DNA of 32,976 nucleotides from Parcubacteria group bacterium GW2011_GWE2_39_37 (GTDB lineage: Bacteria > Patescibacteriota > Patescibacteriia > Patescibacteriales > GWE2-39-37), in NCBI GenBank assembly GCA_000995135.1, contig LBWY01000012.1, forward strand, positions 1-32,976, read 5' to 3'. The position numbers and the translations under genes were made by a program. Positions 8,501 through 10,881 of the stretch are shown piece after piece. The notes beneath the pieces were generated by a model. The model did not search any database, had not been told where the DNA came from, and was given only the letters and a program-made list of their open reading frames with translations. The number at the start of each line of letters is the position of its first letter. The stretch's first letter is position 1.

Positions 8501-8530
8501 TTGACACAAGGTCGAAACTAATGATAAAAT
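8501..8530 (+). promoter_or_regulatory. Promoter of the GNAT-ASCH gene
   Basis: TTGACA (8501-8506), an 18-nt spacer and TAAAAT (8525-8530) form a near-consensus sigma-70 promoter. The predicted start near 8537 leaves a leader of about 108 nt, unlike the leaderless promoters of the neighbouring minus-strand genes. Confidence 0.75.
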
Positions 8531-8539
8531 ATTTTGAAT

Positions 8540-8640
8540 CCCAAGATAGGCTTGGGTGTCTAAACCTGTCCATTCCACAACACAACCATTGAGTTACGCA
8601 ATGTCAATTTCTTGATTGACATGTAACTCGAAAAGGAGAA
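8540..8640 (+). promoter_or_regulatory. Structured 5' leader with two hairpins and a strong Shine-Dalgarno site
   Basis: Hairpin 1 pairs CCCAAG (8540-8545) with CTTGGG (8551-8556). Hairpin 2 pairs 8591-8608 with 8615-8629: GAGTTAC with GTAACTC and ATGTCAAT with ATTGACAT, with a 3-nt bulge (GCA) and a loop of about 6 nt. Its 3' arm ends 3 nt before AAGGAG (8633-8638), which lies 6 nt from the ATG at 8645. A small ORF ATG-TCA-ATT-TCT-TGA and a bare ATG-TAA occur inside hairpin 2. The placement right before the ribosome site suggests control of translation or RNA stability; no known riboswitch class is recognised. Confidence 0.6.
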
Positions 8641-8644
8641 AACC

Positions 8645-9994
8645 ATGAAAACCCCTTTTATTGTTATCCGTGAAGCAGGTTCAGGCGATTATGAGTTTGT
8701 TGCCAATCTTATGCACAATGCGCTAGAACCTTACTATGGTGGTGACCACCGTGCCCACGCCAAACGAATTTTCGATGCACATCTCGATGGTGGACATGAC
8801 AAAGTCGGGTTTTTCTCTTTCGAACAACTCATGTTTATTATGGAAGTTGACAATGTGAAAGCCGGGATGATTCATCTGGTCGGTAAGCGACAATCAACAT
8901 ACAAAATAAGTCCCTTGATTGTCGCCCCCGAATTTCAGGGTCATTTTGGCCTTGGCAGCAGATTGCTCGAACACGCAGAAAAGTATGTGCGAGACCAAAA
9001 TGCTCGTCAGCTATATTGCACAGTTGCAGAAAAAAACATCTCTGCAATGCAATTTTTTGCACGCAAAGATTTCATCCGTGCTGGCACTTCAGAAAGCCAC
9101 TACAAATATGGTGTTACTGAGGTAATGCTATACAAACCTTTCTATGAGATAAGTGCAATAACAAGTCTTGACCAAATGAATGTATCAGTCATCCCCTTTG
9201 ATGAAACGCAACAAAAAATGAAAGAGCAAGTTACTCAGCTCTTGCTCACAAAACTCCCTCTCTCATTTGAAGGAATTACTGATGAATGGGTAGGGGCGCT
9301 CTTTGCAGGCTACAACCGCAGAAATACAGCAGATATAAATGCAAAGTATAAATTGATTTTCGTTGCAATCGATAATAACAACGACGTAATCGGTGTGGCA
9401 GCAGCAACGCCAAAAAAAGGAAGCCCCATCAAAGTAATGCCTTTTATTGCCACCAACATGGTGGCATTTGAGGCACTTCTTATTGACATCCCCCACCAGC
9501 TAGTTCCCTATGGTCATAAATTGTATATCCATATTGACCCAACTGCTGAAGAAGTCGTGGCTCTCCAACAGCTTGGTTGGACATTAGACGCAGCCATGCC
9601 CAATTCGTACCGTCCTGGGATTATTACGCAGCAATGGAGCCTCAACATCGGAGAAAAAACCATGAAAACTATGAGAGTAAAAAAACGTTTCTATGACTTA
9701 ATCCAATCAGGCAAAAAAGATATCGAGGTTCGCGTGGGTTATGACTCGATAAAACGCATAAAAAATGGCGAGCACATTCAACTCATTTCCCACACTGCTC
9801 ACCTTAATGTTCGCGTTAACGCAATTCATCATTACCCCTCTTTCGAAACCATGCTTGATAATGAGCCTTATAATCGAATTGCACCTGACGCCTCCACAAG
9901 GGAAGAGGTGCTTTCCCTACTTAAAGCTATTTACCCTCCGGAAAAAGAAAAACTCGGGGTCATAGCATTCGAACTTGACCTGCTCAAGAAATAG
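8645..9994 (+). CDS. GNAT acetyltransferase fused to GNAT-like and ASCH domains
   Basis: A 449-residue three-part protein. Residues 1-165 are a GNAT N-acetyltransferase: acetyl-CoA motif A reads LIVAPEFQGHFGLGSRLLEH (91-110) with the Q-x-x-G-x-G turn at 98-104, followed by motif B around 122-145. Residues 175-335 look like a second, degenerate GNAT fold without a clear acetyl-CoA loop. Residues 340-449 are an ASCH domain with GKKDIEVR (356-363), the usual GxK-x-x-E-x-R signature of this RNA/nucleoside-binding PUA-like fold. ASCH proteins include the N4-acetylcytidine hydrolase YqfB, so a link to acetylated bases is possible but speculative. The gene has a consensus promoter, a structured leader, a strong Shine-Dalgarno site and its own terminator, and its base use is less AT-rich than the neighbours; recent acquisition is likely. 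An internal start at 9662 could yield the ASCH domain alone. Confidence 0.88.
   Translation: MKTPFIVIREAGSGDYEFVANLMHNALEPYYGGDHRAHAKRIFDAHLDGGHDKVGFFSFEQLMFIMEVDNVKAGMIHLVGKRQSTYKISPLIVAPEFQGHFGLGSRLLEHAEKYVRDQNARQLYCTVAEKNISAMQFFARKDFIRAGTSESHYKYGVTEVMLYKPFYEISAITSLDQMNVSVIPFDETQQKMKEQVTQLLLTKLPLSFEGITDEWVGALFAGYNRRNTADINAKYKLIFVAIDNNNDVIGVAAATPKKGSPIKVMPFIATNMVAFEALLIDIPHQLVPYGHKLYIHIDPTAEEVVALQQLGWTLDAAMPNSYRPGIITQQWSLNIGEKTMKTMRVKKRFYDLIQSGKKDIEVRVGYDSIKRIKNGEHIQLISHTAHLNVRVNAIHHYPSFETMLDNEPYNRIAPDASTREEVLSLLKAIYPPEKEKLGVIAFELDLLKK
9650..9664 (+). promoter_or_regulatory. Internal ribosome-binding site and ATG before the ASCH domain
   Basis: GGAG (9650-9653) lies 8 nt before the in-frame ATG at 9662 (Met340). 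The stretch GGAGAAAAAACCATGAAAAC closely repeats the real gene start GGAGAAAACCATGAAAAC at 8635-8652. It falls exactly at the boundary of the ASCH domain, so it is either the relic start of a once separate gene or a working start for a 110-residue ASCH protein. Confidence 0.5.
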
Positions 9995-10006
9995 TTCGAG
10001 AAAGTA

Positions 10007-10036
10007 CCCGGACAGCAACACTGGCCGGGATTTTTT
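10007..10036 (+). terminator. Intrinsic terminator of the GNAT-ASCH gene
   Basis: CCCGG (10007-10011) pairs with CCGGG (10025-10029), extended inside by CAG/CTG across an A-G mismatch, and is followed by a run of six T (10031-10036). It overlaps the stop codon of the convergent ASCH gene by two bases. Confidence 0.75.
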
Positions 10037-10373
10037 ATTCTTTTATAAATTTTATTCCAACAACACCGTATTCATTTTCATCTGCTAACGAATAAAATTC
10101 ATGAATTTCTTGTATTAAATATTCTTTTGAATCACCGCCGAAATACGCAGGAGGAAAATTAGAAAATAATTCTTCAAATGAATTATACTTATACAACGCC
10201 AATACTTTTGTTGTAATTTTAATATTTTGATCATCATTATTTACAAATTCAATTAAATCCCCGACCTTAATTCGTTGCCTTTTTTCATCGAACAGCCGAG
10301 ATTCAATTATTTTCTTTCCATTTATAATTTTTTCAAATGGCGCCTTAGCCAATTTCATTTGATGAATAACCAT
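10035..10373 (-). CDS. Small ASCH-domain protein
   Basis: A 112-residue protein that is almost entirely one ASCH (ASC-1 homology, PUA-like) domain. It opens MKLAKAPFEKIINGKK from Met6, has the signature GKKIIESRLFDEKRQ (19-33) with Glu24 and Arg26, and then KVGDLIEF, the strand that lines the nucleic-acid groove. The late motif GVVGIKFI closes the barrel. ASCH proteins bind RNA or modified nucleosides, and some hydrolyse N4-acetylcytidine; the substrate here is unknown. Met1 (10373) and Met6 (10358) are both possible starts. It is convergent with the GNAT-ASCH gene, and its own ASCH domain is clearly different from that one (DEKRQ versus the partner's YDSIK), so the two are not a simple duplication. 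Confidence 0.85.
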   Translation of the reverse strand: MVIHQMKLAKAPFEKIINGKKIIESRLFDEKRQRIKVGDLIEFVNNDDQNIKITTKVLALYKYNSFEELFSNFPPAYFGGDSKEYLIQEIHEFYSLADENEYGVVGIKFIKE

Positions 10374-10459: not shown

Positions 10460-10881
10460 TTAATCACCTTGCTCTACATAATGCAAGCAAATTACATTGT
10501 TATTCCCTAATTTTTTCAGACAAAGGACAGAATCAAACTGTTTAAAATCAAACGGATCAGTCACTGAAAATCTGAATGTTCCTCGCTTAACATCACATCT
10601 CGAGAAAGGTAATTACAAAGAAATGTAATGCCGATTTTTTTCTCGCCATTGTCTTTGGTAAAATTAAATACATTAAAAAGCTCTCCAACTTCAACATCCA
10701 ACCCCACCTCCTCCATAATTTCCCTGATTAATGCTTCTTCCGGGGTTGCACCTTCCTCCACTGTGCCACCCACAGTTTCCCAAACTCCAGGCAGGTGATC
10801 ATCATTCTTGCTTCTTTTAACAATCAGAATTTTACCATCATTCCGTCTAATTATGCCCTTTACTGCTAATTTATGTGTCAT
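10460..10881 (-). pseudogene. Nudix hydrolase, frameshifted near the C-terminus
   Basis: From ATG 10881 the frame reads MTHKLAVKGIIRRNDGKILI with the Nudix box GGTVEEGATPEEALIREIMEEVG (G-x5-E-x7-R-E-U-x-E-E-x-G intact) at about 38-60. It stops at TGA 10561-10563 right after SEEHSDFQ, where the family normally continues with W. Adding one base (TG to TGG) joins the next frame, which reads WTDPFDFKQFDSV and runs to a TAA at 10460-10462, giving about 140 residues, the usual family length. Reading through the TGA in the same frame gives no family-like sequence, so this is a one-base loss and not a recoded stop. The catalytic box is complete, so the 106-residue product might keep some activity. 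It follows the acyl-CoA synthetase by 8 nt on the same strand. The substrate is unknown (NTP or nucleotide-sugar type). Confidence 0.8.

Follow-up and report, generated by a model that had tools for sequence, protein, structure and literature searches.

A conserved GNAT–ASCH gene pair in Patescibacteriota with a possible role in the acetylation of nucleoside-type compounds

The DNA analysed here, referred to as the window, is a stretch of 32,976 nucleotides that forms a complete contig of a 0.97 Mb draft genome from the phylum Patescibacteriota. Its plus strand carries a gene for a protein in which two acetyltransferase-type regions (GNAT and GNAT-like) precede an ASCH domain (ASCH1), and a separate gene for a different ASCH protein (ASCH2) lies next to it on the minus strand. 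The features of the locus are:

8501..8530 (+): promoter TTGACA-18-TAAAAT with TG ahead of the second hexamer; agrees with the consensus at 11 of 12 positions
8591..8629 (+): leader hairpin, bulged on its 5' side by GCA at 8598-8600 and closing five bases ahead of the Shine-Dalgarno site; from folding, with counterparts in loci L028, L070 and L071
8634..8638 (+): Shine-Dalgarno site AGGAG, dG -8.7
8645..9994 (+): full-length gene, 449 aa, GNAT, GNAT-like and ASCH1; 12 full-length homologues
8645..9142 (+): first GNAT domain, residues 1-166, with an intact and conserved cofactor loop QGHFGLG; PF00583, 1.5e-12
9164..9652 (+): probable second, degenerate GNAT-like domain, residues 174-336, without the glycine loop; aligned to the first GNAT with hhalign
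9650..9664 (+): internal Shine-Dalgarno site GGAG (9650-9653) and in-frame ATG (9662-9664) at residue 340; best of 26 internal in-frame starts
9662..9994 (+): ASCH1 domain (PF04266), also predicted to exist as a free protein of 110 aa
9999..10036 (+): GC-rich terminator hairpin and T run between two convergent genes; z = -3.5
10035..10373 (-): ASCH2, separate 112-aa ASCH protein of the ESRL[FY]DEKR subfamily; PF04266, 9.3e-11

The original prediction, made from the letters alone, described one large gene joining an intact acetyltransferase, a degenerate second one and a PUA-like domain in an order not known from a characterised protein. The gene is indeed present, and its first domain is an intact acetyltransferase: residues 56-140 match PF00583 in Pfam with 48.3 bits against a cut-off of 20.7, and the loop fits the Q/R-x-x-G-x-G/A cofactor motif, with glycines that are invariant in seven homologues. 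The best matches of this domain to named enzymes are weak and include RimI, PaiA, and the spermidine and nourseothricin/streptothricin acetyltransferases. Assignment as a streptothricin/nourseothricin acetyltransferase was rejected, the score being 19.4 bits against a cut-off of 420 for the NCBIfam stat model. The second acetyltransferase is a less settled matter. No Pfam family matched the middle third of the protein (residues 170-335), and an AlphaFold model from two sequences, the window protein and its homologue L007, reached a pLDDT of 47, too low to be of use. However, a profile of the middle third built from eight sequences aligned to the first-GNAT profile with an hhalign E-value of 6.5e-5 and a probability of 64%, and residues 174-336 are quite likely to be a degenerate GNAT-like repeat. 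The PUA-like third domain was borne out by a PF04266 match over residues 344-444 (E 3.4e-11 to 4e-10, 44.2 bits against a cut-off of 21.2). The order GNAT / GNAT-like / ASCH is conserved in 13 genomes and is therefore not a one-off fusion, and no family with this order is named in the libraries searched.

The same prediction had placed the gene behind a near-consensus promoter, a structured leader and a strong Shine-Dalgarno site and ahead of a GC-rich terminator, with base use less AT-rich than its neighbourhood, and these elements were all recovered. Two copies of the motif TTGACA-N16-18-TAWAAT are present in the window, where 0.11 would be expected from shuffles. The leader (8537-8660) folds at -30.8 kcal/mol, with z = -3.4 against shuffled sequences. 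The Shine-Dalgarno site is the strongest among the 31 genes of the window, most of which have none. The terminator is recognised by its hairpin, though it is absent from the output of a stricter consensus scan. The GC content of the gene is 43%, compared to ∼36–37% for the window. The description of an island unlike its surroundings thus holds for base composition and Shine-Dalgarno use, but the conserved unit comprises two genes; "self-contained" was wrong, because the adjoining gene at 10035-10373 (-) is a conserved ASCH partner. Further along, the product of a NUDIX gene (10561-10881) looks cut short at its C-terminus, with 106 aa and a profile matched to position 108 of 134. Its open reading continues downstream in another frame, and the gene may be broken.

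Homologues were sought in the phylum of the window, in plasmids and phages, and in one genome_contigs scan. The last of these gave the closest homologue, L007 from Candidatus Jacksonbacteria, at 72% identity. With whole-genome searches the set of full-length members grew to 13, window included, at 49–72% identity to the window protein, and the other homologues come from ∼1 Mb genomes of the same phylum; we accordingly take the window to belong to an ultra-small bacterium. No match in plasmid or phage records covered 80% of the protein, and no relative was found among viral contigs. The distribution is patchy: of 380 genomes sampled from the phylum, 7 had a member, and members fall in several classes. 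In a tree of the proteins L028, from another class, lies nearer to the window protein than do some members of the window's own class, and several changes are needed to account for that class, although support for most of the inner branches is weak. Patchy distribution and tree placement together point to horizontal transfer of the module, of which the tree alone is no proof, and the module is probably an accessory one that spreads horizontally.

An ASCH2-type gene lies 41–129 bp from the full-length gene in all 13 loci. The window copy scores 42.8 bits against the PF04266 cut-off of 21.2 and belongs to a subfamily different from that of ASCH1; the most divergent copy is that of L030. The two genes are convergent in the window, L007, L028, L070, L071 and L072, ASCH2 lies upstream on the same strand in L029, L031, L032, L067, L068 and L069, and only in L030 is it downstream on the same strand. 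Distances between ASCH2 proteins follow those between the full-length proteins, with r = 0.93 over 11 loci, a value not reached in 5000 Mantel permutations. The pairing is kept even where the fusion is built differently: in the reversed-order ASCH1–GNAT fusions of L033, L075 and L076, beside the solo ASCH1 of L037, and in L078, where GNAT, ASCH1 and ASCH are separate genes in a row. One exception is L077, a solo ASCH1 in whose genome no ASCH2 was found. That the genes stay adjacent through repeated rearrangement argues strongly for joint function, and the module is almost certainly real and co-inherited. Judged by its sequences, it is a conserved two-gene module without a family name and a variant of the GNAT plus PUA-like systems. 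ASCH2-type genes were detected in 38 of 362 genomes, and they are also found without ASCH1; inspection by eye of six such loci (L085-L090) gave no common neighbour. In L034 (5165-6052) an ASCH2-type domain is fused behind a histidine phosphatase domain.

The full-length gene may encode a second product. When the internal in-frame start codons of each gene were compared (23–35 per gene), the start just ahead of the ASCH domain had the best Shine-Dalgarno site in 11 of the 13 genes, with dG between -6.4 and -9.5. At the protein level the linker at this point shows little conservation (GEKT, GETT, GEIT, GGDL, EDNT, EGEV, KEGVA, KEGAT and KEGTT), yet GGAG recurs in nearly all of its variants, at much the same spacing and not always in the same codon phase, with GGAA in L067. 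The start is GTG in three related genes, the site is weak in L071, and in L072 the start codon is lost. A null model of synonymous codons is beaten modestly gene by gene (P 0.06–1.0), and the genes are related. ASCH1 is a separate gene in the relatives L037 and L078, which makes a free product plausible. The same observation would fit an internal start left over from an ancient gene fusion and yielding no free ASCH1, as would the weakened or lost sites and the modest result of the null model. Against a relic speaks the top rank of the site in 11 of 13 genes as far apart as 49–72% identity to the window protein, and its spelling by several different linkers in more than one codon phase. We consider the relic possible and the less probable of the two readings, and free ASCH1 is probably also produced from the full-length gene; the modest null, the relatedness of the genes and the state of the site in L071 and L072 keep this estimate from being higher. 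A precedent for an in-frame internal start that releases a C-terminal subunit is Cas11b (PMC11899642). Were the internal start used, a second protein would lie concealed in some of the fused accessory genes that ultra-small bacteria carry.

A hairpin with a three-base bulge (GCA or ACA) on its 5' side lies shortly before the Shine-Dalgarno site in the window, L028, L070 and L071. Similar bulged hairpins were seen by folding or by eye in L029, L030 and L069, plain hairpins in L031, L032, L067 and L068, and none in L072. When the first four sequences were aligned, 94% of cells could pair and three pairs had changed on both sides, a result reached by 35 of 500 shuffles, so that compensatory change in the hairpin is supported, not conclusively. 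A covariance model gave good scores only at leaders of the full-length gene, in a search of the loci and 267 genomes of the class. The base of the stem pairs with the Shine-Dalgarno site in L028, L070 and L071. Sequestration of the site by the leader was rejected, because such pairing is not above that of shuffled leaders, and the claim is therefore limited to the hairpin itself. The leader may control translation, at slightly better than even odds, perhaps by binding a protein. The sequence TGCTCTTTRACAAC occurs in the leaders of two homologues (L007, 3744-3757; L028, 2282-2295), and resembles boxA, the signal for antitermination in rRNA operons.

ASCH domains are widespread and few have a known function. 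The nearest solved sequence relatives of the two proteins here are Pyrococcus PF0469 for ASCH1 (structure 1xne, 1.7e-21) and Pyrococcus PH0355/PF0455 for ASCH2 (2z0t/1s04, of which 2z0t is nearest). These archaeal proteins stand alone and are labelled hypothetical or uncharacterised in their database entries.

A clue to the substrate comes from the sole homologue found outside the phylum, WP_156895395.1 on plasmid p1 of Rhodococcus sp. 2G. It is ∼31% identical to the window protein over the GNAT halves, which stand in the same order and spacing and share the PKKG..K and QW motifs, but it has a C-terminal MazG-like domain where the window protein has ASCH. Unlike the window gene, this GNAT-GNAT-MazG fusion sits in a nucleoside-antibiotic-type cluster (L091, 14539-31561). 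Its neighbours encode an ABC-F ribosomal-protection-like protein, an MFS exporter, a TetR regulator, a nucleoside 2-deoxyribosyltransferase, an NDP-hexose 2,3-dehydratase, RfbH, and a homologue of cytosylglucuronate synthase (1e-56, below the cut-off of that model). We take this gene set to be that of a cluster for a cytosine-nucleoside antibiotic of the blasticidin/amicetin type. It favours a small molecule of nucleoside type as acetyl acceptor, and for the window gene a role in resistance or detoxification. The step from the Rhodococcus cluster to the window bacterium is one that we infer across 31% identity; the cluster may say nothing about the substrate in the window bacterium, and the Rhodococcus protein could serve biosynthesis instead of protection.

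Our leading explanation, to which we give a probability of about 40%, is that the unit is an acetyltransferase for a nucleoside-type compound, likely serving resistance or detoxification, in which the two ASCH proteins would bind the base or RNA; the nucleoside-type substrate itself is held equally tentatively. The first GNAT domain would acetylate an amino group of a small molecule of this type, with an antibiotic or a toxic modified nucleoside as the likeliest candidates. The second GNAT-like domain may shape the substrate site or a dimer, and the ASCH domain would recognise the base. Free ASCH1 from the internal start might pair with ASCH2, with the full-length enzyme or with both, and the leader hairpin would set the amount of protein, possibly through ASCH binding. 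A fuller scheme, in which the two products and ASCH2 form a multi-subunit system for nucleoside or RNA acetylation that regulates itself by ASCH binding to the bulged leader hairpin, is unlikely in our view. Acetylation, or its control, of a nucleoside or RNA was the idea originally put forward; its nucleoside version gains from the Rhodococcus cluster and now leads, the substrate itself staying a proposal. The conserved association of two different ASCH proteins with an acetyltransferase offers a concrete class of substrates to test. Should the substrate prove to be a nucleoside antibiotic, these genes would represent a resistance-type family in ultra-small bacteria, a group in which, to our knowledge, such genes have been little studied.

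The same parts could act on RNA, the ASCH domain binding tRNA or rRNA, the GNAT domain acetylating a base or an aminoacyl-tRNA, and ASCH2 reading or limiting the modification. ASCH and PUA-like domains bind RNA (PMC5615036, PMC7641849), ribonuclease residues of ZmASCH being Tyr47, Lys53 and Ser128 (PMC5615036), and a bulged RNA hairpin is conserved ahead of the gene. The ASCH1 subfamily also accompanies an orphan synthetase-like protein with HxGT and KLSKS motifs on actinobacterial plasmids, in the Streptomyces phage Picard and in Patescibacteria (L037), company that keeps an RNA-related role in consideration. However, no tRNA gene lies near the window gene, an Rfam scan gave no match to a known RNA family there, the Rhodococcus homologue replaces ASCH with MazG, a nucleotide-type domain, and patchy distribution speaks against a core RNA modification; we rate action on RNA as somewhat unlikely. 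Patchiness equally tells against housekeeping repair of N-acylated nucleosides made in the cell, in which the ASCH domains would be hydrolases. Such a role is suggested by YqfB, an N4-acylcytosine amidohydrolase of the ASCH family with a catalytic Thr24-Lys21-Glu74 triad (PMC6972931), and by a weak match of the YqfB model to ASCH1 (E 0.05). Compared to E. coli YqfB, ASCH1 and ASCH2 keep the equivalents of Lys21 and Arg26, but the nucleophile Thr24 is replaced by Glu in both and Glu74 is not conserved. We therefore rejected assignment as a YqfB-type N4-acylcytidine amidohydrolase, and consider housekeeping repair very improbable.

The nearest published arrangement is the (PIN)-GNAT-EVE + ASCH system, which is uncharacterised and was read by Bell et al. 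(2020) as toxin-antitoxin-like (PMC7641849). A module of that kind, with a toxic or anti-phage GNAT aimed or restrained by the ASCH proteins, would suit the fusion of GNAT to a C-terminal PUA-like domain in both systems, the separate ASCH gene (nearly always present beside (PIN)-GNAT-EVE), the patchy distribution, and a gene order that varies while adjacency is constant. The differences are several. The fused PUA-like domain is EVE in the published system and ASCH in the window protein, in which Pfam detects no EVE, so that we do not file the unit as a member; the window protein also has the extra GNAT-like domain and the internal start, and it lacks PIN and AAA_17. Its ASCH2 gene is often convergent, with a separate promoter, rather than co-transcribed, which is unusual for a toxin-antitoxin pair. 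A type II GNAT toxin-antitoxin system (TacT/AtaT) was rejected, the window protein being a multidomain one of 449 aa and monocistronic on its strand; no RHH-type antitoxin partner was seen, ASCH2 being the only conserved partner in the loci read. A PADLOC match was weak and partial (7e-4), and the lack of relatives among viral contigs likewise counts against defence, a reading that we regard as distinctly unlikely.

The orphan class-I synthetase-like family gave no sequence match in Pfam, NCBIfam or the PDB. Its members overlap or are fused to ASCH1-type proteins in L043 (3855-4970), L045 (2865-3977) and L037 (6141-7235), and on an Amycolatopsis plasmid an AAA_28 gene precedes the synthetase-like gene. 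Across the 13 loci of the full-length gene, this gene is GC-richer and ASCH2 GC-poorer than the surroundings in 12, with a gap of 11–20 points between the two neighbours; in L072 the contrast is reversed.
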